From: Bacteroidales bacterium
GTDB lineage: Bacteria > Bacteroidota > Bacteroidia > Bacteroidales > P3
Direction of reading: 5' to 3'
NCBI GenBank assembly: GCA_017522065.1
Contig: JAFXAD010000050.1
Coordinates: 89,216-153,215, forward strand
DNA: 64,000 nucleotides
The notes below the pieces were generated by a model that had not been told where the DNA came from, did no database searches, and saw only the letters and a program-made list of their open reading frames with translations. The position numbers and the translations under genes are program-made. This document shows, in pieces, positions 1-17,663 of the stretch (its first letter is position 1; each line of letters starts with the position of its first letter).

Positions 1-304
1 ATCCTTCACCAAAAAGTGTTTCAGGCTGCCATAAAGTCAACATTCCTCCGTCTTTAACTGCCCTATAGTGCTGCCCGCGACACTCATACTCCAGAGTGTA
101 GTCAAACCTGGGCATTTCCTCTTTAGAGGGCCTACGCCCGGAAGCCAACTGGTTCAGCTCGTCGAATATCAGAAGCAGAATCTCTATCATATTCGACTTA
201 CCCATGCCGTTTTGACCCACCAGCATTGTTACCAGTTTGTCATGCAGCGATATGTCAACCGTCACGTTCTTATATTCCGTGACCTTCAGTCTTCTTATCT
301 TCAT
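1..304 (-). CDS. P-loop ATPase (RecF/SMC-like), N-terminal part, cut by window edge
   Basis: About 101 codons of the N-terminus are visible; the rest lies beyond base 1. The protein begins MKIRRLKVTEYKNVTVDISL and carries a Walker A motif, GQNGMGKSN, near residue 30, followed by helical sequence (MIEILLLIFDELNQLASGRR). This layout is typical of AAA ATPases of the RecF/SMC/OLD type found in many defence systems. The ATG overlaps the stop of the HsdS-like gene in an ATGA arrangement, so it is translationally coupled and is the last visible gene of the defence operon. Whether it carries a C-terminal nuclease (Toprim or HNH) cannot be seen. Confidence 0.75.
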   Translation of the reverse strand, partial: MKIRRLKVTEYKNVTVDISLHDKLVTMLVGQNGMGKSNMIEILLLIFDELNQLASGRRPSKEEMPRFDYTLEYECRGQHYRAVKDGGMLTLWQPETLFGEG

Positions 305-936
305 AAGGGTTTCTTAAAAACCTCATTGAGCCAAGCCTTCAGAGTCATCTCAGCCTGCAGGTTCAGTTCGTCACACTTTTTTTTCAGATCCTTCCGACTC
401 ATCTCCATCGACAGTTCTTTCAGTCGCTGCGTCTTTTGCTTCAATTCGTTTGTTAGCTCCTCTATTCGCTGAAACTTATCTGCCACTTCTTGCTGTGTGG
501 CCATATCCGGCACAGGAATTACCATCTGCTTCAGATAGTTCATGTCCAAATGCCCTATGGCCGCACCTTTTATTCGTTTCTGGAAGTCATCATAGCGATA
601 ACTCAGGTAACAATAAAGATAACTCGTGAGCACATCGTCATTTTTCAGACTCAATACTGCCAATGTCGAGGCGGCTATCCCTTCCTGCGCAAAAAACACT
701 TTCCCGCTACGATAGCCATCTTTTACCATGACAAGGTCATTTTCACCTACCACGTATCCTGCTTTGTCAGCATATTGTCCGGAGGCTCCTGTCTCCAGCA
801 TCTTGATAGTAACGTAGGGCAATGAACTGTCAAAGGGACGCACTTCCACACGCCTGGGGCGTCTCGCGGAACGTATTTCCACAAGGTCTGCTAATGGCAT
901 CTCCCTTATATTCACAGTATAAATATTGTTAACCAT
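301..936 (-). CDS. Type I restriction-modification specificity subunit-like protein (HsdS-like, single recognition domain)
   Basis: 211 aa, about half the usual HsdS length of roughly 400. It fits one target-recognition domain followed by one helical spacer. The TRD shows family-style segments such as VMVKDGYRSGKVFFAQEG and LTSYLYCYLSYRYDDFQKRI, then IPVPDMATQQEVADKFQRIE, which leads into a Lys/Glu-rich coiled coil (about residues 150-190). This 'IP-P...Q..IA' type transition is a hallmark of HsdS. A half-length subunit would be expected to dimerise to recognise a bipartite site. The start overlaps the methylase gene by 8 bp and the end overlaps the next ATPase by 4 bp. No HsdR motor is visible in the window. 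Confidence 0.75.
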   Translation of the reverse strand: MVNNIYTVNIREMPLADLVEIRSARRPRRVEVRPFDSSLPYVTIKMLETGASGQYADKAGYVVGENDLVMVKDGYRSGKVFFAQEGIAASTLAVLSLKNDDVLTSYLYCYLSYRYDDFQKRIKGAAIGHLDMNYLKQMVIPVPDMATQQEVADKFQRIEELTNELKQKTQRLKELSMEMSRKDLKKKCDELNLQAEMTLKAWLNEVFKKPL

Positions 937-2659
937 TAATCTCTTTTTCTATCCTTGCCAGTAAACTACGTATTTCCCTTACCACTTTATTGGCCTCATC
1001 CAAGTATTGCATAGGGGTTTCCATCTGCATTTCCAACTGCCCTCTGTCATCATTGAAGGTGATTCTGTAATCCTCACTGCGTATGGCATCCAGAGCTATC
1101 AACTTACTCCTTTTGTCAGCCGTCCTGCTATGGTAGGTCCTGTTGAAATCTTTGAACGCAGATATGTCCCACAGTTGCTCTGGCTTCTGTTTTCCCTTCT
1201 TCATGTCATACACCAACACCTTACCGTCACCCCCCCTCTGTCGCCTGATAAAAAGAGCACACATCGGTATCGTCGAATTTGTATAAATTCCTTGGGGCAG
1301 TCGCAGTATAGTATGCAGATAACATTCTTCAAACAGGCGTTTCCTTGCCCTTCGGTAGTCTGATGAAGTTTTATACAGGAAGTTTTCGGGCAGCAACAGT
1401 GCAGCCCTGCTTCCGGGTTGCAGACTGAGGGAGTTTGCAATCAACTCTACAAAGTCTGTCTGCCTGTTTCTGGTCGTATTGCCCATTCGAGATTTTCCCG
1501 CCAAAGTATAGACTGGCAATGGCGGTTCGCAAATGATACCGTCATATTGTTTGTAGTCTATTGTTGTCAGCGAATCCCCGACTTTCACTTCACTCCGCAA
1601 ACCGTGGAATCGGGTGTTGCAAAAACCAATCCTGGCCACTTCCTTTTGAATTTCCATCCCCGTAAGGGCTTCAGTCAATTGGAACAACTTCTCACCCTCA
1701 TTCAGCCCGTGGTAGTTGTCACTTTTACCTCGCAAATAATTGTCAATCGCTACCAAGAAGCCAGCATAGCCTGATGCAGGGTCATGCCATCGCTCTCCTG
1801 TCTCTGGTTGCAGCAATTCTACTAACAATTGTGCCAATACTGGGGGTGTATAATTCTGAACCGCCCCTCCTTCTTTGGTCATCCCGTTTTCTTGCAGCAA
1901 GAGGTCAAACACCTGCGTGATGTTTTCATCCTTGGCGCACTGCGATACCACTCTGATAGCTTCGCTAAGAACAGTAGCAGAGTAGATGCGCGTTTGCTGA
2001 CCAATCTTTTGTATGGCTTTTTGGTATTGTGCTATCAGCTCGTCACCTGTTTCTTCTTCCAGCGATTTCCAAGTCTTTGATGCTTTTTCATCATAGAATG
2101 TCATCCACCTCAGATATAGCATATTGGCCATTTCATATAGAAACTGATACGTGGACACACCTGCTTCCACCAGACTATCGCGTAGTCCCCATAATTTGCG
2201 CGACTGGTCTTCTACCACTGTGATAAGTCTATGACGAATTCTCAGGTCATCCGTTCCATATTTCTCACGCAGCCAATGCTGTAATTCATGAATGTATTTG
2301 AATCCTTGTTTTTCTGCTTGTATGCGCAAAGTTGAACCATCACCTATGAGAACTCGCTCAAAGGCATCCAGAAAGTAAGTATAGTCTCTATTATATACTG
2401 GTATCTCATCACCAGGCCTTACAACTGAGGCCGCAATCACCGGGTCATAATAGATATTACTTGCATATTTCTTACTTATTGGCATAGGCTGCACATCGCT
2501 GAGCGTCACAGGTGCATCAAGTTCTTTTAGCAAAACCTTACCTTCTTGATCCACCCCTGTTATAACAAAGGCATTGTCACTAAACCACAGTTTGCCCTTC
2601 AATTCCTCAAACTTGGCATCCGTCAGCCTGACAATATCATTCCATTGATAGTCAACCAT
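929..2659 (-). CDS. N6-adenine DNA methylase-like protein (HsdM-like) with divergent catalytic motif
   Basis: 576 aa. The C-terminal half is an HsdM-type class I methyltransferase. SAM-binding motif I is HDPASGYAGFL at residues 292-302. The LLLPENFLY segment (about 421-429) and RLPQGIY..STIPMCALFI also match HsdM. The catalytic motif IV, normally NPPF/Y, reads CEPPLPVY at about 377-384, so the Asn is replaced by Glu and the aromatic by Leu. This raises the possibility of lost or altered methylation. Residues 1-200 are a helical N-domain that I do not recognise in detail. It overlaps RdrB upstream by 8 bp and HsdS downstream by 8 bp, which points to one transcript and one system. Confidence 0.78.
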   Translation of the reverse strand: MVDYQWNDIVRLTDAKFEELKGKLWFSDNAFVITGVDQEGKVLLKELDAPVTLSDVQPMPISKKYASNIYYDPVIAASVVRPGDEIPVYNRDYTYFLDAFERVLIGDGSTLRIQAEKQGFKYIHELQHWLREKYGTDDLRIRHRLITVVEDQSRKLWGLRDSLVEAGVSTYQFLYEMANMLYLRWMTFYDEKASKTWKSLEEETGDELIAQYQKAIQKIGQQTRIYSATVLSEAIRVVSQCAKDENITQVFDLLLQENGMTKEGGAVQNYTPPVLAQLLVELLQPETGERWHDPASGYAGFLVAIDNYLRGKSDNYHGLNEGEKLFQLTEALTGMEIQKEVARIGFCNTRFHGLRSEVKVGDSLTTIDYKQYDGIICEPPLPVYTLAGKSRMGNTTRNRQTDFVELIANSLSLQPGSRAALLLPENFLYKTSSDYRRARKRLFEECYLHTILRLPQGIYTNSTIPMCALFIRRQRGGDGKVLVYDMKKGKQKPEQLWDISAFKDFNRTYHSRTADKRSKLIALDAIRSEDYRITFNDDRGQLEMQMETPMQYLDEANKVVREIRSLLARIEKEING

Positions 2660-5444
2660 TTTTCTTACCCATTAGAATAATTATACTCGTTTTCAGCCGG
2701 TCAATAAAACGTTGACCACGCATCTCGTCTTCCATATCTTTTCTTACGCGTTCTTCCAACCCCTTCAATGTACTCTTTTCTGGATGGTCCTGGAGTGAAA
2801 CAGACTTGTCAAAACGTTGAGAAAGAGAATTGAGCCTGGTTTTATCAAGCCACTCAAACACATCGCTTTCCCTTGTATTTCCTTCTCCAAGCCTGTATTT
2901 GCGTATAAGTGCATGAGCTACCAAAGCATATTCTCGTTCTATCGATGTGGAAAACACGCCCTTGTCATCTGTGTTAATGGATACGGAAATATCATGCCTC
3001 GGATATTCTGACTGCCCGTTGATTGTGTTGAATTTTGTGATAGGATGGTTGTCATAGCGGTCTATTTCTCCTATCTTGAAGTTGGACGTTGGGTTGCACT
3101 CTATAGCAATGCCCAGGCCCTCCACTTGTTGCAGCAGTTGTTGTTGCACCATTTCTATTGTCTGGCACATAGCTCCATCTACCTCCCACGTATCATACGT
3201 TCCGCCATTTAGTTTTCCTTCTTTACTATAGTGGTATTGATGATACAATTTGCAGGCTTCACGCTGTTTTCGGGCCTCGTCGCACACCTTTGTCCTCACC
3301 AGTGCCTTATTGCCCCATGCCGTCACATCCTTATAGCGGTTGTTCACATGACCATCTGCATCATAGCACTCAGGGTTATCACCGCGCAATAGCATACTGC
3401 TATAATACAAATCTATACTCGGTGTTCCTCCATAGCTAGGATATACTCGCCTGAAACAGTCTCCAAACCGCCGCTGCAGTTCTGCATTGCATTTATTGTG
3501 TATGCCCATCCGGCTCATACGGTTCCATAGCCAGGCGGCATTGTCCATCTGCATCTGTAGTGACATAGCCACAGTGTAGTTCCGTAGTTGGTAATACTTG
3601 CCGGCCTCCACACCCAGCACAAGCCCGTGACCTATCCTGTCTCCTTTTTGCAACTGAAGAAAAAGTATGGCTTCATCTACAGCCCGCAGCCCATCCACGA
3701 TGTCCATAAAGTCCTCACCCACATGGTAGGTTATACCGAGGTCGGCAGGACAGTGCATCTGCTTGTTTTTTATCTGATGTCTTCTTAGGTAGCGAAACGC
3801 CTGCGCAAACACCTCTGGTCTTGCCGCTATCTCACTATTGGCGGCATCTATGCCAACTATTCTGTCTGCGTAATACTCGTCTTTCTTATTCTTCCTCAAT
3901 GAATTTCGCAGGTCATAGATACCTTGTGCCTGTTTCTTCACCTTCTCCCTCAAAGCATGGTGTCGCGGCACAGCGTCTAACGCTTCTTCTTTTGGCTCGT
4001 CTTTTTCCTTGATAAAATGATAGATGTAACGGTATGTCCAATGTGTACTTTCTGCATCATTGCAGGTTCTGAACATCGGGTCTTCTATGGCATTGTCATC
4101 GAATTCTATTTCTTCTATATTCTTATCCACCATGTCATCCTCATCTTCAGGAGTAATACGGGTCTCGTGATACCTGCTGCCTTCGGGGTGGTCGCTGAAG
4201 AAACTGGCCACTGCCAGATGGATGGCGGCCTTTTTATAGGCAGGATAGGGTTTGGCAAAGATGAGTTTACGTTCTTCGTAGATACTGAAATTTGCGAAAC
4301 CTACTGTGTCATTAAGCTGACTGATTTCGTGACGGATCTCATTTTTGATTAGAAGATAGATGTATAGTAATGTCGCTACACATCCATCACTATAGTCCCC
4401 AAGATAGATTCCCCTCAGCGTACTATATAGTATATGTCTTTCGCCGGAGAGCAAACTATACGCGCACATTTCCTGCTTCCCACGGGGCACTGTCACGCCC
4501 TCTCTGATGGCGTAGTCAAAGCGTTCAGCATCGCCTGTTTGGTCATTGACATACTGTTTTCCGCAGGTTTGCAATGCTGTTTCAATAGATTGCTGCAATT
4601 TGCTTGCCTCATCCAATATAGTGCTGTCCGGGAACTTTCTCATCAAGCCTGACAGTTCCTTTTTTGTATATACAGGACTCTTTGCCTCAAGCTGTGCAAG
4701 ATACAAGCGTATAGCGGCTGCAACTACCGCTTTCTGATAAAGACCTGTTGAATCGTTGCTTTGATGGTGGTGTCCTTGAACGAATCCTGCTATTTCATCA
4801 AATTGTGTCTTACGGCCTGTGATGTGATTCATCAGGCATATCCAGTTGATATCGAAATTGAGAGAAGAGCCCTTCAAGTGCGCATGTATGTCCGCCAATG
4901 GCATTTCCAGCATGGTTTCCAGTACGGGATCGTCGGTCCTGATATATGAAGGCCAGGCAAAATCGTTTCTTTTTGTGGGATCTGGAACGTTATTCAAGTC
5001 GTAAGCGGCCAGAAAAGCGCACACCAGCAGATCTTCTCCTATAGCAGAACTGAGTGTATGCCAACGTAGAATGTCCTGCCAATGGCAAACTACTTGCGTG
5101 TTATCCTTCAGCTCCAGTGTTCCTTGATCCACGAAATAAAGCAAGGCGTTGTATATCGTAGGGGCCTTGGAGTAAGCCAGACGGTCTGAATCTGCGTCTG
5201 CTTTCATCCAATGCGTCTTCAGCATCTCAACGATACCGTACAGCTGGTCTATCGTGAACTGCTCATCATCACCACATACACTACGCATCATTTGAACCAG
5301 CTCCATAGGTTCAATCCGTGGTGATTCTACGCTATAGTTTCCTTTCACCAGTTGCTTGATGAATGGGGTACAATCCGCCCGCAACAGCAGTCCCCTAAGA
5401 CACAACTGCAGCTCCTTCTGTTTATGAATTTCTAATGATGACAT
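2652..5444 (-). CDS. rdrB: RADAR-type adenosine deaminase (RdrB-like)
   Basis: 930 aa, in the size range of RdrB. In RADAR anti-phage systems RdrB deaminates adenosine to inosine in nucleotides or RNA during infection. All metal and catalytic elements of the adenosine deaminase fold are present: the HAH pair in DIHAHLKGSS (H187, H189), YHVGED (H574, catalytic E577), RIGHG (H606), IECNPTSNFK (about 781-790) and SINTDDKG with D826/D827. Long insertions between these motifs are typical of RdrB compared with housekeeping Ada (about 350 aa). The start overlaps the ATPase gene by 23 bp. The active site appears intact. The assignment to RdrB rather than another large Ada-like protein rests on size and pairing with the RdrA-like ATPase. 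Confidence 0.85.
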   Translation of the reverse strand: MSSLEIHKQKELQLCLRGLLLRADCTPFIKQLVKGNYSVESPRIEPMELVQMMRSVCGDDEQFTIDQLYGIVEMLKTHWMKADADSDRLAYSKAPTIYNALLYFVDQGTLELKDNTQVVCHWQDILRWHTLSSAIGEDLLVCAFLAAYDLNNVPDPTKRNDFAWPSYIRTDDPVLETMLEMPLADIHAHLKGSSLNFDINWICLMNHITGRKTQFDEIAGFVQGHHHQSNDSTGLYQKAVVAAAIRLYLAQLEAKSPVYTKKELSGLMRKFPDSTILDEASKLQQSIETALQTCGKQYVNDQTGDAERFDYAIREGVTVPRGKQEMCAYSLLSGERHILYSTLRGIYLGDYSDGCVATLLYIYLLIKNEIRHEISQLNDTVGFANFSIYEERKLIFAKPYPAYKKAAIHLAVASFFSDHPEGSRYHETRITPEDEDDMVDKNIEEIEFDDNAIEDPMFRTCNDAESTHWTYRYIYHFIKEKDEPKEEALDAVPRHHALREKVKKQAQGIYDLRNSLRKNKKDEYYADRIVGIDAANSEIAARPEVFAQAFRYLRRHQIKNKQMHCPADLGITYHVGEDFMDIVDGLRAVDEAILFLQLQKGDRIGHGLVLGVEAGKYYQLRNYTVAMSLQMQMDNAAWLWNRMSRMGIHNKCNAELQRRFGDCFRRVYPSYGGTPSIDLYYSSMLLRGDNPECYDADGHVNNRYKDVTAWGNKALVRTKVCDEARKQREACKLYHQYHYSKEGKLNGGTYDTWEVDGAMCQTIEMVQQQLLQQVEGLGIAIECNPTSNFKIGEIDRYDNHPITKFNTINGQSEYPRHDISVSINTDDKGVFSTSIEREYALVAHALIRKYRLGEGNTRESDVFEWLDKTRLNSLSQRFDKSVSLQDHPEKSTLKGLEERVRKDMEDEMRGQRFIDRLKTSIIILMGKKNG

Positions 5445-7899
5445 TCAAATCGTCTTCAAAAGGGTCTTTTATCGTTGTGGTATTGAAGATGCTCACAAAT
5501 TGTTCTTTCACAGCAGCATTTTCCGAAGAAAACAATTCGGCAAATTTCCTGAAGAACTCAAAGTGAATAGTGTATGGCTTATCTTCTTCCCCAGTCCTGT
5601 CATCATCATATCGGTCATACGATTTGATACTATAGTTGGCTACCGCTTCAAAGAAATCGTGAAGCATTCCATAACTGTCAAGACCCTTGTCATATTCTTT
5701 TGCCCTGACTGTATCCAAAAGGTCTTCCATAATCTCCATATTGCGGAAACAGCAGAACGACAGCCATTTTTCTTCATCGTTTTTCCATTCTTTATGACGG
5801 TTTTGCGATGTCAGTTGCTTCATATCGGTAAAGAGCGGGTCGCGGCCTTCACTTCTTTCTGATTTTAACATGTCAAGAAATGCCCTTCCATGAGGCAACA
5901 CCTGAAATCTGTTGAAACAGCGTTCCACTCTGCATAGGTTGAAAAACAACGCTCCTAGGTCAAAGTACAAATCGGTATGCTGCGAAAAGGCATCATAGCA
6001 TAAGTCTGGCGAACTGCGGAAAGACAATTGCATGGACAAATCTTTGCTTCCATCATAATAAATCGTCAGCATCAGAAATTCTGCCAGCCTTATCAGATTC
6101 TGCTCACTTGCCTTCTGCCAGTCATTCAGGCATAATTCAAAAAGATTGTCAATATTACCTAATGATATGACACTACGGAAAATCTTGTTCGAATTATACT
6201 CCTGTGGTATCAGTTCATCCAAGTCGGTACAATACACGCTGCCTCCAACAATGGCTTCATAGTCATTCCACACTACATCGTGTTCTGGTTTTTGTATCAG
6301 CAAATTCGCTCGTTCCTGCTCCTTCTCCTTTTCACTCGACGAAGAGATGCTGTCATAGGCCCCATATAGCTGGATGCTATAGAATGACCTTAAGAAAAAC
6401 AAGAACTTCCTGACATCCTCGCCCATTTTTGTGCGCTGCGTCAGTCTGATAATAGCCAACACATCGCCAATAGATATGTTAAAGGGAGTGTTGTGGGGAC
6501 TCAGAATCTTATCTACGATTTCTTTTCCCGTCCTGTTTTTCAGGTTCGACTCGGTAATGTCATCCAGTATCTGGAGCACCTCGTAATTCAGTTCTTCCAT
6601 GTTTTGCACACGCTTCACCCTGTCTGCATATTCCTTGTATTCTTCTGTCAGGTTAATATCACACCAGTCATTGTAGAAATACTGACGAAACATTTCCTTG
6701 TTATAGTAATGAGGACTTGCCTCGCCCGACTCTGCATAGTCGTTCATCTGCAACAGCAGTTTAAACATCTGTCGCATATCACGCAGGTTCCTCGGCACAA
6801 TATAACTCACCCGTTTGGCACTGTTATAAAACAGGTATCTTGTCTTCAGGAATATCAGTTCCGGGATAACCTGCTTGATCTTAATTCCGTCTGACAGGTT
6901 ATAACCCCACCGCTCTTTGTCATTAAAGACAGGTTCTGCGTCCATATATTCCGACGGCGAAGGCATATAGATGCGCTGATGGGCGGGAAGCAGTTTAGCC
7001 AGATAGCGTTCCGCACGCTGGGCTATCTCATTCCTTTCACTATAGTTCACACGCTGAAATCTTCTGTAGGGAGTCCCGTCATCCGTAACAAGATATTCTT
7101 CAGTGTACTTCCGCTGGATGATACCCGACAACTGCGCTATCTTCATCGACATCAGTGTGATGATGTTGGGTTGCATAAAGTATTTCCGCAATTGTTCGCA
7201 CATCTCGTAGGCGTGATCGCTGTCTATATCTATATCATCAACCAGCAACAGTAGCACCCCATCTTTGCAACCGCTGTATTTCAGATACAAATCCACCAGA
7301 TTCTGGATGTTCTCTCTAATATCCACCGAGGCCGCCATATCCACCAGGTACTCCATACCGTCCTTTGCCTTCTTGTCACCAAACATGCTGCGAAGGTTCT
7401 GCTGTACAGTGACAAACATCTTCATCAAGTCTGTCCTATACTTATTCCCCGTCCCTTCTTCCACGCACTCTGCCGACTCTTCTTTTTCTTGGAAAACACG
7501 GTATAGCCGGGCAATGAACAAGGATAGTATATTGTGTTCTTCATCAAAGAAGGAAGGGTCAATCATGGGAATAGCAAGAAACTCCGCCTCTGCTGCATAC
7601 TTGGCATTCTGGCAAATCGCTTCATGATGTTCTGATGTGAGCATATTGGCCATCGAAAGCATACAAGAGGTCTTTCCTGTTCCACGCTCACCGTCGAACA
7701 CAACAATGTTATTATTGTTATCTACGCTGTTACGTAAAGCCGCAGGTGTTTCCTGCATATTCTTAACGCCCTTCAGGTAGGCATCAATAAGAAGTATGCA
7801 CTGTTCATACTGATCCCTGAACATGGAATCTTTTGCCTCTTCCAGATCTTCTATATACGGTCTGTTATCGCCATTCAAGTCAAATTTTATCTTCTTCAT
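5422..7899 (-). CDS. rdrA: RADAR-type P-loop ATPase (RdrA-like)
   Basis: 825 aa. Walker A is FDGERGTGKTSCM (residues 68-80) and Walker B is LLLLVDDIDID (about 216-226), followed by a segment (YFMQPNIITLMSMKIAQL) that resembles the sensor-1 region of KAP/AAA+ ATPases. The remaining ~550 residues are largely helical, with no nuclease or membrane segment that I can see. In described RADAR systems the ATPase RdrA forms a large assembly with the deaminase RdrB. Here the two genes overlap by 23 bp in the same order. A 10-bp gap separates it from the upstream cyclase-like gene. The start MKKIKFDLNGD is well supported by this spacing. Confidence 0.83.
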   Translation of the reverse strand: MKKIKFDLNGDNRPYIEDLEEAKDSMFRDQYEQCILLIDAYLKGVKNMQETPAALRNSVDNNNNIVVFDGERGTGKTSCMLSMANMLTSEHHEAICQNAKYAAEAEFLAIPMIDPSFFDEEHNILSLFIARLYRVFQEKEESAECVEEGTGNKYRTDLMKMFVTVQQNLRSMFGDKKAKDGMEYLVDMAASVDIRENIQNLVDLYLKYSGCKDGVLLLLVDDIDIDSDHAYEMCEQLRKYFMQPNIITLMSMKIAQLSGIIQRKYTEEYLVTDDGTPYRRFQRVNYSERNEIAQRAERYLAKLLPAHQRIYMPSPSEYMDAEPVFNDKERWGYNLSDGIKIKQVIPELIFLKTRYLFYNSAKRVSYIVPRNLRDMRQMFKLLLQMNDYAESGEASPHYYNKEMFRQYFYNDWCDINLTEEYKEYADRVKRVQNMEELNYEVLQILDDITESNLKNRTGKEIVDKILSPHNTPFNISIGDVLAIIRLTQRTKMGEDVRKFLFFLRSFYSIQLYGAYDSISSSSEKEKEQERANLLIQKPEHDVVWNDYEAIVGGSVYCTDLDELIPQEYNSNKIFRSVISLGNIDNLFELCLNDWQKASEQNLIRLAEFLMLTIYYDGSKDLSMQLSFRSSPDLCYDAFSQHTDLYFDLGALFFNLCRVERCFNRFQVLPHGRAFLDMLKSERSEGRDPLFTDMKQLTSQNRHKEWKNDEEKWLSFCCFRNMEIMEDLLDTVRAKEYDKGLDSYGMLHDFFEAVANYSIKSYDRYDDDRTGEEDKPYTIHFEFFRKFAELFSSENAAVKEQFVSIFNTTTIKDPFEDDLNVIIRNS

Positions 7900-7909
7900 G
7901 ATGCCTTTC

Positions 7910-8602
7910 TTATTTTGATACCCAGTTGTTCATCGCAATATTTACAATCTTTCCCCGATAAGTGGGAAAAGACAGTCCTTCCATCTCAAACAACTTGCGG
8001 TTGTTTTCTGTCAGGTTTTTCCAAACTATATCACTGATCACAATATCATCATCTGCCTTATCAGCATTTCTCGATGCTCGGTCTATAGTCTCTCCCCTCC
8101 ACATAAATCTGGAAAATCTATCGTCATGCAAATTGATGGGGAGCATATTTACAGCGCCATAGTCCATTCCTATGGATGCTTTGATCGCTGGCATGCCTCT
8201 TTGTTTAGCTTTCTTTGAAACCACCAGTGCCAATGTCCTGACACGGGCTGCATCATCCAAAGCTTCGTTGAGCTCAGTCTTCAGTGAGGTGTCATATACC
8301 AGACGCAAACACTTGTCTGTTACCATAATATCCTTACAGCAGGAGCTATTACCTCCTATACTGATTGCTTCCGATACAAAACTCTGAATAACAGGAAGGT
8401 TATACTTCTCTTCCGCTAGATGCCAGATGTCTGGCATTATTTCAAAATTCACGTGAATCACAGTAGCCTGTGGCATATATACCGCTGAAGCATTTATTAT
8501 CTCCAAGCTCGGTATTGCCCTGCCTGGTTTCTCTGGTATCTCTGATGCCAGCATGGCATCTATACGTTCCAGAGAATCTGTGAAATAATAAGTTGTTGCC
8601 AT
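7910..8602 (-). CDS. Class III nucleotidyl cyclase homology protein, probably degenerate; first gene of the RADAR-like operon
   Basis: 230 aa from the ATG at 8602 (MATTYYFTDSLERIDAM); the frame is open 22 codons further upstream, but that extension looks non-coding. Residues about 45-195 match the cyclase homology domain: a hydrophobic first strand (ATVIHVNFEIM), VTDKCLRLVYDT, KASIGMDYGAV, and GETIDRASRNADKADDDIVIS. In active enzymes the first strand carries a metal-binding Asp, here Asn52. The 'VNxAxR' segment that stabilises the transition state reads IDRASR here. The second Asp (D97) is kept. I infer a nucleotide sensor or an altered cyclase. A membrane-protein accessory (rdrC/rdrD type) as described for other RADAR loci is absent. 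Confidence 0.65.
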   Translation of the reverse strand: MATTYYFTDSLERIDAMLASEIPEKPGRAIPSLEIINASAVYMPQATVIHVNFEIMPDIWHLAEEKYNLPVIQSFVSEAISIGGNSSCCKDIMVTDKCLRLVYDTSLKTELNEALDDAARVRTLALVVSKKAKQRGMPAIKASIGMDYGAVNMLPINLHDDRFSRFMWRGETIDRASRNADKADDDIVISDIVWKNLTENNRKLFEMEGLSFPTYRGKIVNIAMNNWVSK

Positions 8603-8698
8603 TTTTTGATTCCTTATGATTACTCCCCCTCTGCGGCACAAACACATACCTACAAAACTCCCAAACACCTTTTAGAATTGATTTCAACTTTTCACTCT

Positions 8699-9106
8699 TC
8701 ATTTTTCACTTTTCACTTCCAGTATCCCTTCCTCCTCGTGCTCCACAAACGGCCCCTCCTTGCATTCAAAGATAACACTCCCTGACTCTAATGACTCCAT
8801 CTTATGCCACACATTCTTAGGGATGTCAACCCCATAGTTGCCACTCTCTTGACTCAACACCACATCTTCTATGATAGAGCCATCATCATTGTGAGTAGTC
8901 ACCCTAACCTTGCCTCGCAGGATAACGAAAGACTCATCCTTCGTTGGATGCCGATGGATGGGTACCACAGTCCCTGGCTCCACAGCATTCAGCATCCGAT
9001 GGCACTTATCTTCCAGCGACTGGTGGAAGTTATAGTTCATCCGCAGCCGCTCCGACGCCTTCGCCCTCTCCGTCAACTCATCCAATATCGCCTGCGTGAT
9101 AACCAT
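8699..9106 (-). CDS. wbuC: WbuC-family cupin metalloprotein (copy 1)
   Basis: 135 aa from the ATG at 9106 (MVITQAILDELTERAKASER). It has a single cupin barrel with metal-ligand candidates in PIHRHPTKDES and a later WHKMES. WbuC proteins are found in O-antigen and capsule loci; their exact reaction is unsettled. It lies 29 bp after the PglE-like aminotransferase gene and is co-oriented. A second copy at 17244-17663 has the same motifs and an identical C-terminal tail EEEGILEVKSEK, and the DNA after the stop is also similar. The frame extends upstream of 9106 but overlaps the aminotransferase, so the internal start is preferred. Confidence 0.8.
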   Translation of the reverse strand: MVITQAILDELTERAKASERLRMNYNFHQSLEDKCHRMLNAVEPGTVVPIHRHPTKDESFVILRGKVRVTTHNDDGSIIEDVVLSQESGNYGVDIPKNVWHKMESLESGSVIFECKEGPFVEHEEEGILEVKSEK

Positions 9107-9135
9107 ATTCGTATGATTAGTGAAATTCGTTTTCG

Positions 9136-10395
9136 TTACCCCACAATGGCGTTCTTTATCGTCTCCACAATATACTTGACATCCTCTTCCGTCACATACG
9201 GACCAGCAGGCAAGCACATACCCACTTTAAAAATCGCTTCGCTAACACCATTCAGATAGCAAGGCACGCCTTTATAGCAAGGCTGCTTGTGCATAGGCTT
9301 CCAAACCGGACGAGCCTCAATCTGAGCCTGGTCCATCAACACACGCAGTGCCTCCACATTGTCATTAGGCTGACAATCCGTCGTAGCACTCTCCGCCATG
9401 TGAATCACCCCCGCAGCACCGCCTACAGCACCCTTCACGATGGTCTTGTACGCATTCTCCTGCCCCTTAATCTTCACATCCTCATCAATGGTGATAGTAC
9501 ACAACCAGTAGTTGGAATCGTAATCTCCACCAGCAGGCTGACTGTGTACGTGTATTCCTGGCACGTCTTTCAAAAGTTCTTCATATAACTTCTGCACATG
9601 CTTATGATGAGCCAAATGGTCATTAACCACAGTCATCTGTCCGCGACCGATACCCGCACAAATGTTCGACATACGATAGTTGTAACCTATCTTTTCATGC
9701 TGATAGTACGGATAACTCTCACGGTACTGCGTGGCATACATCATAATCTCGCGCCAATGGTCTTCATCCTCAGTAATCAGTGCACCACCGCCCGAGGTCG
9801 TGATCATCTTGTTGCCATTGAATGACAGCACACCATACTTACCAAACGTACCCAGCGTCTGTCCTTTGTACTTCGAACCAAATCCCTCAGCAGCATCCTC
9901 CACTACAGGAATACCGTACTTATTGGCAATCTCCATTATACGGTCAGCCTTGTACGGCATGCCATACAGTGCCACCGGCACGATGGCCGCAGGCTTCTTT
10001 CCCGTCTTCTCTATGCGGTCTTTGATAGCCGCCTCCAGCAGTTCTGGGTCCATATTCCACGTGTCCGGCTCCGAGTCAATCAACACTGGTGTTGCACCCA
10101 GGTACGTAATCGGGTGTGTCGAGGCACAGAACGTAAAGCTCTGCACCAGCACCTCATCCCCCGGCTTCACGCCAGCCGCCAGCAGTCCCAGATGTACCGC
10201 AGCCGTTCCGCTCGATAGTGCGACAACCCGTTTGTTTTCGCCTACAAACTTTTCAAGGTCAGCCTCAAAACCATTCACATTCGGTCCCAGAGGCACCACC
10301 CAGTTCGTATCGAAAGCTTCCTTAACGTATTTCTGTTCCATTCCGTCTTCGCTCATATGAGCAAGACAAAGATAAATTCTTTTTCTTTCTGACAT
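9136..10395 (-). CDS. DegT/DnrJ/EryC1/StrS-family sugar aminotransferase (PglE/bacillosamine-type)
   Basis: 419 aa PLP-dependent sugar aminotransferase. Visible elements are the N-terminal SSGTAAVHLGL, the VVEDAAEGFG aspartate that contacts the PLP nitrogen, and SFNGNKMITTSGGGA with the catalytic lysine. The C-terminal EARPVWKPMHKQPCYK is characteristic of the 4-keto-6-deoxy-sugar aminotransferases that make UDP-bacillosamine-type or legionaminic-acid-precursor amino sugars. It probably supplies an amino sugar for the surface polysaccharide and would suit the PglC-type initiating transferase at 24611. About 40 internal residues (KGAVGGAAGVIHMAES region) form an insertion near the substrate site. 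The product is not determined by sequence alone. Confidence 0.82.
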   Translation of the reverse strand: MSERKRIYLCLAHMSEDGMEQKYVKEAFDTNWVVPLGPNVNGFEADLEKFVGENKRVVALSSGTAAVHLGLLAAGVKPGDEVLVQSFTFCASTHPITYLGATPVLIDSEPDTWNMDPELLEAAIKDRIEKTGKKPAAIVPVALYGMPYKADRIMEIANKYGIPVVEDAAEGFGSKYKGQTLGTFGKYGVLSFNGNKMITTSGGGALITEDEDHWREIMMYATQYRESYPYYQHEKIGYNYRMSNICAGIGRGQMTVVNDHLAHHKHVQKLYEELLKDVPGIHVHSQPAGGDYDSNYWLCTITIDEDVKIKGQENAYKTIVKGAVGGAAGVIHMAESATTDCQPNDNVEALRVLMDQAQIEARPVWKPMHKQPCYKGVPCYLNGVSEAIFKVGMCLPAGPYVTEEDVKYIVETIKNAIVG

Positions 10396-14146: not shown

Positions 14147-15292
14147 TTATCTTAGTGCATCAACGATGCGACCGCAAGCCAAGCCATCACCATAGGGGTT
14201 CACGGCCTTGCTCATCTTTTCGTAGGCAGCCGCATCATCCATCAAGGTGCTCACTTCCGACACAATCAAATCGTGATTGGTACCAACCAAATGAACGGTA
14301 CCACTCTCAAGTGCTTCCGGTCTCTCAGTTGTATCTCTCATCACCAGCACGGGTTTTCCAAGACCAGGAGCCTCTTCTTGAATGCCACCACTGTCGGTAA
14401 GCACAACGGTTGATTTCTCCATCAGATACACGAACTCTAAGTACTGAAGTGGTTCGATGAAGAAGAAGTTCGGGCGAGTCAAATCTTCGCCAAACACTTC
14501 GTGGATCGGCTTACGCACGTTGGGGTTGAGGTGCATGGGATAAACAAAGTCTACATTTGGATACTTCTCACTCAGATCCTTCATAGCCGTCACCATGCTG
14601 ATAAACCCGTCACCAAAATTCTCACGACGGTGGCCTGTGATGAGAACGAGTTTCTTACCACCATCCAAACGAGTTACATCATAACCCGCCTCTTTCAGCA
14701 CGTTGATCTGCTCATCGGCCAAAGCTTTGTCACTCTTCAGCTTATTCACCACCATGTGAAGAGCATCAATAACGGTATTACCCGTCACATAAATCTTTCC
14801 CTGAGCTTTCTCGGCTTTCAAGTTGCTTTCACTCAAAGGTGTGGGTGAGAAGTTATAGGTAGCAATTCTGCCCGTAATCTGGCGGTTCATCTCCTCCGGC
14901 CATGGGCTGTAGATGTTGTGAGTCCTAAGACCTGCCTCCACATGACCCACAGGAATTTGCTGATAGAAGGCAGCAAGGGCTGCAGCCGTACTGGTAGTAG
15001 TGTCGCCATGCACCAGCACCACATCGGGCTTGCACTCTTTGAACACATCCCTCATGCCCGTCAGCACACGGGCTGTTACGTCATACAGGTCTTGTCCCTG
15101 CTTCATGATGTTGAGGTCGAAATCAGGAGTAACCTCAAATATTTTCAGCACCTGGTCGAGCATCTCTCTGTGCTGACCCGTCACGCACACTATGGTTTCA
15201 AAATCTTTCGGATACTTCTGGAACTCCTTCACCAGCGGACACATCTTGATGGCCTCTGGACGGGTTCCGAAAACAAGCATTACTTTTTTCAT
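14147..15292 (-). CDS. wecB: UDP-N-acetylglucosamine 2-epimerase (non-hydrolysing)
   Basis: 381 aa from the ATG at 15292 (MKKVMLVFGTRPEAIKMCPL); an upstream in-frame ATG at 15322 adds ten residues not typical of the family. Conserved segments are GTRPEAIK, VHGDTTTS, VEAGLRTHNIYSPWPEE.NR, TGHRRENFG and DSGGIQEEAPGLGKPVLVMR, which together are diagnostic of WecB. It converts UDP-GlcNAc to UDP-ManNAc for surface polysaccharide. No UDP-ManNAc dehydrogenase (WecC) is adjacent, although a nucleotide-sugar dehydrogenase lies at 54502. Active-site histidine and acidic residues appear intact. Confidence 0.93.
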   Translation of the reverse strand: MKKVMLVFGTRPEAIKMCPLVKEFQKYPKDFETIVCVTGQHREMLDQVLKIFEVTPDFDLNIMKQGQDLYDVTARVLTGMRDVFKECKPDVVLVHGDTTTSTAAALAAFYQQIPVGHVEAGLRTHNIYSPWPEEMNRQITGRIATYNFSPTPLSESNLKAEKAQGKIYVTGNTVIDALHMVVNKLKSDKALADEQINVLKEAGYDVTRLDGGKKLVLITGHRRENFGDGFISMVTAMKDLSEKYPNVDFVYPMHLNPNVRKPIHEVFGEDLTRPNFFFIEPLQYLEFVYLMEKSTVVLTDSGGIQEEAPGLGKPVLVMRDTTERPEALESGTVHLVGTNHDLIVSEVSTLMDDAAAYEKMSKAVNPYGDGLACGRIVDALR

Positions 15293-15323
15293 TTGTATAT
15301 TTATTCTTAAGTATGAATACAAT

Positions 15324-17243: not shown

Positions 17244-17663
17244 TCATTTTTCACTCTTCACTTCCAATATTCCTTCCTCCTCGTGCGACACAAATGGGCC
17301 CTCCTTGCACTCAAACAGCACACAAGGCTCAACACACATGATAGTGTGCCAAGTGTTTTTAGGAATGTTTACACCAATATTTCCAACATCATCACAACAA
17401 AGTAGGGCATAATCTTCCATTGTGCCTCTGGAGTTATAGGTAAACACCTTCGCTTTCCCAGTGAGAATGATAATGGTTTCATCCTTCTTTGGATGACGAT
17501 GGATAGGGATTTCCGTGTCGGGTTCCAACGCATTTAGCATACGATGGCATTTCTCTTTCAAAGACTTGTGGAAGTTATAGTTCAGCCTCAACCTTGGCGA
17601 TACTTTTGCCTGCTCGCTCACATCGTCCAAAAGATGATCGTCTATAAATTCAAGATGTTTCAT
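17244..17663 (-). CDS. wbuC: WbuC-family cupin metalloprotein (copy 2)
   Basis: 139 aa. Cupin motif PIHRHPKKDET with metal-ligand histidines, GNIGVNIPKNTWHTIM, and a C-terminal ECKEGPFVSHEEEGILEVK. It is clearly homologous to copy 1 at 8699-9106 but diverged in the middle, while the 3' end and the AT-rich bases after the stop are much more alike. The gene lies downstream of the long capsule operon (after the GT2 at 17792). Role in polysaccharide biosynthesis is inferred from context. Confidence 0.82.
   Translation of the reverse strand: MKHLEFIDDHLLDDVSEQAKVSPRLRLNYNFHKSLKEKCHRMLNALEPDTEIPIHRHPKKDETIIILTGKAKVFTYNSRGTMEDYALLCCDDVGNIGVNIPKNTWHTIMCVEPCVLFECKEGPFVSHEEEGILEVKSEK

Follow-up and report, generated by a model that had tools for sequence, protein, structure and literature searches.

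A seven-gene Bacteroidales operon that probably chains two antivirus modules, RADAR with a putative pseudo-cyclase and PtuAB with HsdM-HsdS

A stretch of 64,000 nucleotides from a Bacteroidales bacterium (contig JAFXAD010000050.1; G000:C50:89216-153215), here called the window, opens with a minus-strand operon of at least seven genes that extends past the window start. In transcription order the operon encodes a cyclase-like protein, the RADAR ATPase RdrA and adenosine deaminase RdrB, an HsdM-like methylase, an HsdS-like specificity subunit, and the Septu proteins PtuA and PtuB. We read it, with a probability of roughly 0.6, as an antivirus operon made of two separable defence modules chained head to tail inside a defence cassette. 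At about the same probability, RADAR with a pseudo-cyclase stands beside a PtuAB pair held by HsdM-HsdS, the two sharing the operon and acting in parallel.

The PycC-like cyclase gene (7910..8602) starts with ATG, the open reading frame (ORF) caller extending it to a GTG at 8668, and is followed after a 10-bp gap by rdrA, a AAA+ ATPase gene (5422..7899). Then come rdrB (2652..5444; overlap with rdrA of 23 bp), the hsdM-like N6 methylase gene (929..2659; overlap of 8 bp), the hsdS-like gene (301..936; 8 bp) and ptuA (4 bp), all on the minus strand. Only codons 1-101 of the 532 in ptuA, an ABC-type ATPase gene, lie within the window (2..304). The gene runs on to G000:C50:87921 in the neighbouring stretch of the contig, L002, which covers the remainder of ptuA and also ptuB, a minus-strand gene for an HNH nuclease of 237 amino acids (G000:C50:87924-87211 = L002:18709-17996) that overlaps ptuA by 4 bp.

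A first-pass annotation of the window had described six minus-strand genes with these overlaps and the single gap. The coordinates hold on re-checking; ptuB, the seventh gene, is absent from that account. Each of the seven reading frames is open, and all are coupled. The single transcript proposed in the annotation is likely from the overlaps. A simple scan of positions 1-9300 gave 13 terminator-like sites, four of them on the operon strand, against 7.6 (standard deviation 2.6) in shuffles, and 24 promoter-like sites against 18.5 (standard deviation 3.9). These sites, like a minus-strand terminator-like site inside ptuA, are consensus matches only.

RdrA and RdrB are RADAR relatives, as had been proposed. 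Their NCBIfam matches (E 4e-26 and 2.5e-47) lie under the equivalog cut-offs, and low sequence identity is normal for the RADAR family according to PMC9994260. Among RADAR chains in the PDB, RdrB matches 8fnw at E 7e-29, and RdrA matches 8hr7 and 8fnt at E 3.5e-10 and 9e-10 with its ATPase half alone aligned. Walker A (GERGTGKT) and Walker B (VDDID) of RdrA are conserved across five aligned RdrAs. H187, H189, H574, H606 and E577 of RdrB align with H152, H154, H498, H530 and E501 of the E. coli protein, whose zinc ligands and catalytic glutamate are named in the same source. Over 88 RdrB rows, each of these residues is retained in 87 or in all, the exceptions being gaps; the segment with H187 and H189 aligns weakly by itself (2.3 bits), yet both histidines are kept in 87 of the 88. 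The adjacent ATPase and deaminase genes that RADAR requires are accompanied by the zinc histidine tetrad and catalytic glutamate that it also requires, and the ATPase and zinc deaminase motifs, as read in the translations, are intact.

For comparison, 86 RADAR loci were collected, namely the best 80 of at least 246 confirmed genome relatives and six viral-contig loci. The latter were found with the RdrB alignment as query, and a single RdrB query recovered no relative from the viral contigs. Among the leading 11 rows of the RdrB scan, ten carry Bacteroidota titles and the remaining one, a metagenome-assembled genome, is titled Erysipelothrix. Many of the 86 stretches stop at a contig edge, and two of them (L022 and L026) break off within rdrA, so that a gene upstream of it would not be visible.

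The annotation had also placed a cyclase-homology gene in the accessory position beside the RADAR pair, and this is borne out. The protein matches the PADLOC PycC profile PDLC02368 at E 4e-28 across most of its length. A cyclase-like gene lies directly upstream of rdrA in three other Prevotella loci among the 86 (L021, L028 and L029), their proteins being 23-34% identical to that of the window. Across the four proteins the profile match is full or near full length (E 9e-22 to 3e-31). The cyclase-like gene is therefore a recurrent RADAR partner immediately upstream of rdrA.

We take the metal-binding aspartates, an asparagine and a basic residue to have the catalytic roles assigned to them in class III cyclases. 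In the order window, L021, L029 and L028, the first aspartate position holds N, R, R and T, the second K, N, D and S, and the asparagine position D, K, Q and E. Thus the first aspartate is kept in none of the four, the second only in L029 and the asparagine in none. By comparison, the three residues are present in 28, 28 and 24, respectively, of 29 control cyclases, which are PycC-profile matches from the same order whose loci were kept for the best matches among all matches. Judged by these residues, the gene probably encodes a pseudo-cyclase. A PDB search with a profile of the four proteins gave a chance match only (E 2.3), and one with a single cyclase-like sequence gave no match.

The HsdM-HsdS-ATPase set lies in the same operon as the RADAR pair, as the annotation had it. 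HsdM matches PADLOC MTase_I (E 3e-61) and Pfam N6_Mtase (E 3e-32). Motif IV, NPPF or NPPY, serves catalysis in such methylases and is what a competent HsdM of a type I restriction-modification (R-M) system carries, but it is EPPL here (within window 1531-1511; codons read in an open frame). The 12 comparison HsdMs all have NPPF, and five other N6-methylase ORFs read in the same genome carry NPPY or NPPF. Motif I is DPASGYAGF, QNYTPP stands where other HsdMs have QYFTPR, and about 146 additional N-terminal residues have no Pfam match. By its motifs, this HsdM is probably catalytically dead. No close relative with a conserved dead HsdM was found; one distant match came up among the family's 60 other genomes. 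HsdS is of half size with one recognition domain (Pfam Methylase_S over residues 11-169 of 211, E 3e-16).

The HsdR that a type I R-M locus also requires is missing: three HsdR queries, which do recover HsdR in two related loci (L132 and L193), find no HsdR-like ORF in L002 or the window. One HsdR query, run with no positive control, found none in the draft genome either, which is 91% complete.

The further ATPase of the first-pass annotation is indeed encoded in the operon, but its identity is Septu PtuA, completed outside the window and followed by PtuB. Whole PtuA matches PADLOC PDLC00293 at E 2e-73, and its ATPase motifs appear intact by eye in the translation. PtuB matches PDLC00339 at E 3e-69, and H66, R68, P69, K70, N95 and N104 are invariant among seven aligned PtuBs. 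Septu requires a PtuA ATPase followed by a PtuB HNH nuclease, and this is the order seen. The NCBI model TIGR04435 scores 117, 135 and 156 bits on the PtuAs of the window, L132 and L134 (cut-off 300). This model is named restriction system-associated AAA family ATPase, so linking such ATPases to restriction loci is not entirely without precedent.

PtuA of the window type was found in six other loci, and HsdM, HsdS and PtuB accompany it in all six. Four have the order HsdM-HsdS-PtuA-PtuB: L132, in a genome of class Bacteroidia (class inferred from the order of relatives), and L134, L135 and L193, on plasmids of Pseudoalteromonas donghaensis, Vibrio vulnificus and Pseudoalteromonas sp. KG3. The other two, L133 on a Roseomonas plasmid and L192 on a Pantoea eucalypti plasmid, have the order HsdS-PtuA-PtuB-HsdM. 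HsdR is present in L132 and L193. L134 sits at the beginning of a circular record, whose final 14.2 kb hold no annotated hsdR or unannotated gap of hsdR size. The S subunits of the six loci have 486-589 residues (from ORF or annotation). When the L132 PtuA was searched against 296 genomes of the phylum, the source genome of the window was the sole match. Neither HsdM nor HsdS was seen in the stretches examined around ten other PtuB relatives from the order, and a recognisable PtuA adjoins nine of these relatives. A viral-contig scan with PtuA alone gave no relative, and phage records gave no match to the L134 PtuA.

Neighbourhood counts bear on whether the operon is one system or two. No RdrA or RdrB match occurs in the stretches read of the six PtuA loci, and PtuAB occurs in none of the 86 RADAR stretches at the thresholds used (E <1e-12 for PtuA, 1e-6 for other queries). 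Weaker ABC-ATPase matches, such as a 336-residue ORF in L026 (5e-09), were left out of this tally. Thus HsdM-HsdS-PtuA-PtuB is a module separate from RADAR, and the joint seven-gene set was seen in the window locus only. HsdM is found in two of the 86 RADAR stretches. In L058 (Fluviicola), HsdM, HsdS and an 821-residue HsdR-like ORF lie directly before rdrA-rdrB, and in L054 (Pedobacter) HsdM lies four ORFs ahead of rdrB.

Behind rdrB, the three other cyclase-bearing RADAR loci differ. L021 has an Avs4/NACHT-like NTPase overlapping by 4 bp and a TIR protein, L028 has DUF2806 and AIPR/AbiU, and L029 has genes that, read with no profile scan, we take to be for sugar metabolism. Given these differences, genes seem to be added in the slot behind rdrB. 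This favours two modules in one operon, which might nevertheless be coupled.

The first-pass annotation had instead fused the RADAR pair with HsdM, HsdS and the ATPase into one composite, in which DNA-methylation status or sequence recognition might gate the deaminase activity. The fusion is not supported, each half being found without the other, and we rejected it as a default reading on the neighbourhood counts. Gating by methylation through the operon's own HsdM is unlikely given the degenerate motif. The annotation had named, as a pattern that would speak against it, methylase and S genes that always occur with hsdR and never with RdrAB. One half of this pattern is seen, in that none of the six relatives shows RdrAB, but HsdR accompanies just two of them. 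The statement that no described system has this gene set agrees with the literature searched, in which there was no report of RADAR with a cyclase or of PtuAB with HsdM/HsdS; coverage was thin for subscription papers and bioRxiv.

Several other explanations were weighed. Ordinary type I R-M with passengers, in which the HsdM-HsdS pair remains an active methylase, HsdR is encoded elsewhere, and RADAR and PtuAB are functionally unlinked neighbours, fits the two relatives with HsdR within the stretch and a genome with other N6-methylase genes. We consider it unlikely in the face of EPPL and the further changes in HsdM that set it apart from the 12 comparison proteins, the failure to find HsdR in the two stretches or, with the one query, in the draft genome, and the constant adjacency of PtuA and PtuB to HsdM and HsdS in the relatives. 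It is doubtful to a slightly greater degree that both degenerate enzymes are coupled switches, a dead HsdM-HsdS restraining PtuAB and a dead cyclase restraining RADAR, so that one DNA-borne trigger would free a nucleotide-pool poison and a nuclease together. A composite with HsdM-HsdS as a shared DNA sensor gating both PtuAB and RADAR, and the pseudo-cyclase as an adaptor to RdrA, would account for seven genes joined by overlaps or a 10-bp gap and for two degenerate enzymes beside two motif-intact effectors. It is nonetheless very unlikely when each half occurs alone and the slot behind RdrB holds other genes in the other cyclase-RADAR loci.

Simple decay, with the methylase and cyclase merely degenerated and the operon being lost, would explain the missing catalytic residues in two enzymes and the half-size HsdS, but it has to contend with seven open and coupled frames, with intact PtuAB and RdrAB motifs, and with the loss of the same cyclase residues in all four divergent loci. 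We find decay as improbable as the composite; the shared loss of those residues favours a kept, non-catalytic role for the cyclase. The least probable alternative, to which we give very little credence, is that the gene encodes an active Pycsar cyclase and that RdrA is switched on by its cyclic nucleotide. The profile matches and a basic residue retained at one catalytic position in three of the four proteins speak for it. On the other hand, the metal aspartate that Pycsar requires is gone at the first site in all four and at the second in three, the window protein included, and the asparagine is gone throughout; the active-cyclase reading was rejected on this loss. The cyclic-nucleotide-binding effector that Pycsar also requires was not seen: Pfam finds no such domain in any of the seven proteins of the operon.

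The two-module reading with a pseudo-cyclase and a dead HsdM has its own difficulties. The basic fourth cyclase position is R, K, D and K in the window, L021, L029 and L028, against R or K in 28 of the 29 controls; the site therefore has not been fully erased, and one control cyclase (L160) likewise lacks both aspartates. In the tree of RdrB, the four loci with a cyclase-like gene fall inside a group of 13 rows (SH-aLRT support 99) or 11 rows (89) and do not form one clade; four changes are needed, and none of 500 shuffles needed more. Seven rows of the 13-row group have no visible cyclase gene (L023, L024, L025, L027, L030, L035 and L101), L035 and L101 beginning close to or inside rdrB, and the two interleaved rows cut inside rdrA, L022 and L026, end before an upstream cyclase gene could show. 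RdrA resembles solved RADAR in its ATPase half only, as is usual within the family. The coupling of the seven genes, with overlaps of 4-23 bp and one 10-bp gap, is tighter than two neighbouring systems need. A dead HsdM gives no account of why the host does not set off the system at its own sites. Loss of catalysis in HsdM and the cyclase is read from motifs, and contact of the pseudo-cyclase or of HsdM-HsdS with an effector is postulated.

With two modules in one operon, a working scheme can be outlined. Upon infection, RdrA would engage RdrB, and ATP and dATP would be deaminated to ITP and dITP, as expected from the intact active sites; for E. coli RADAR, PMC9994260 reports that RdrB produces ITP/dITP and that RdrA enhances this. 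The pseudo-cyclase would most likely bind RdrA or a nucleotide and set the threshold of RADAR activation. Meanwhile, the HsdM-HsdS complex may read DNA sequence through the half-size HsdS and keep PtuAB silent. Phage attack on this complex, or competition for it, could then release the PtuA ATPase and PtuB nuclease. Freed PtuAB might cut tRNA or DNA and halt the cell; the analogues behind this idea are PrrC next to type I R-M and the PtuAB of retron-Eco7. The latter is reported to cause growth arrest and tRNA-Tyr degradation and to be neutralised by reverse transcriptase and msr-msd jointly. Because the M subunit looks dead, self and non-self would not be read from its own methylation mark. 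Both modules would share transcription and act in parallel.

The operon lies in a cassette with further defence genes. Downstream of ptuB, L002 encodes a 397-residue protein of no assigned family, a reverse transcriptase pair, DRT3a and DRT3b (L002:12364-15995, profile matches), a PDC-S01 ATPase, a 1251-residue protein likewise of no assigned family, and a Dsr2-like SIR2 protein. Rfam gave no match on L002 at gathering cut-offs. The upstream cassette edge is marked by a whole FdtA/WxcM-like cupin gene (8699..9106, minus strand; Pfam DUF6016, E 2e-23 on ORF 8699-9217) and the far edge by a copy with no start (L002:10553-10260). The two copies are 76.8% identical in nucleotides (L002:10268-10557 and window 8694-8987), and a third copy lies at about 17247-17642 of the window. 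We take the surroundings for a polysaccharide locus because neighbouring genes read, with no profile scan, as nucleotide-sugar enzymes, presumably an aminotransferase (9136-10395) and an epimerase (14147-15322).

Cupins of this kind were found at E 1e-20 in 15 of 59 genomes of the genus, and related ones near RdrB in two of the 86 RADAR loci (L024 and L026). Eight proteins were scanned in five cupin neighbourhoods of the genus (L194-L198); five match defence profiles (PDC-S71, QatA, PtuB-like, PDC-M29A and PDC-M62A) and three match none. The copies beside or around defence genes in the window, L002, L194, L024 and L026 may mark an integration hotspot. A small ORF between ptuB and the gene for the 397-residue protein (L002:17537-18000) resembles, by eye, one that follows the cupin in L198 (8962-9234).

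Other RADAR neighbourhoods showed further candidate partners. L024, L025 and L027 have RdrB with a complete zinc site and no RdrA match, possibly an RdrB system with a different partner. In these three and in L026, L028, L035 and L101 (7 of 86), a peptidase read as M42, a viperin-like radical-SAM protein and an SNF2 helicase adjoin RdrB. In 13 of the 86 loci, mostly from Bacillota (L055, L057, L060, L061, L062, L066, L069, L073, L074, L079, L083, L088 and L102), the gene immediately ahead of rdrA is a related ORF of about 590-720 residues, a candidate RADAR accessory. Among those scanned, the L055 and L069 proteins have no match in Pfam or PADLOC, nor has that of L069 in NCBIfam. A second related family (414-479 residues) lies two ORFs before rdrB in six of the 86 (L067, L075, L078, L080, L084 and L098).

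How RADAR is triggered is described as an open question in PMC9994260. A recurrent cyclase-homology partner with no metal aspartates, encoded just ahead of rdrA, offers a concrete candidate for a regulator. The HsdM-HsdS-PtuA-PtuB module would give Septu effectors another type of sensor, besides none and the retron. A natural version with a dead methylase would separate DNA reading from DNA marking.

Among known systems, MADS was considered, as the methylase, ATPase and S subunit match mad2, mad3 and mad5 in PADLOC (E 4e-18, 5e-19 and 2e-15). However, MAD2, MAD3 and MAD5 score far under the NCBIfam cut-offs (27 of 720, 32 of 420 and 30 of 400 bits), and the MTase_I, PtuA and Specificity_I profiles score higher. 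MADS membership was therefore rejected, the remaining mad genes having been sought only via general PADLOC and NCBIfam scans. The cyclase-like protein matches Pycsar PycC along its length but does not keep the metal aspartates and asparagine, and no Pycsar effector was recognised in the operon.

Like RADAR, the operon places homologous genes for the ATPase and the deaminase next to each other in the RADAR order, and the zinc site is complete. It differs in scoring under the equivalog cut-offs and in having a pseudo-cyclase upstream, whereas other RADARs have other neighbours, such as the SLATT membrane protein that follows RdrB in L016. As for embedding, PMC8565338 and PMC12255303 describe Septu in Hma and DarTG2 in type I R-M, where, as here, one defence system sits within another that bears a DNA methyltransferase. 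Hma has a helicase, an m5C methyltransferase and an ATPase rather than HsdM-HsdS, and DarTG2 is not PtuAB. PrrC beside type I R-M is likewise an effector nuclease with an ABC ATPase domain in an hsd locus, according to PMC11555353, but the nuclease here is PtuAB, HsdR is absent and the M subunit looks dead. Lastly, the adjacent ABC-type ATPase and HNH nuclease with intact motifs are shared with Septu and with the PtuAB of retrons Eco7 and Ec78. The sensor slot, which per PMC8565338 is empty in Septu type I and holds a reverse transcriptase in the retron, is occupied here by HsdM-HsdS.

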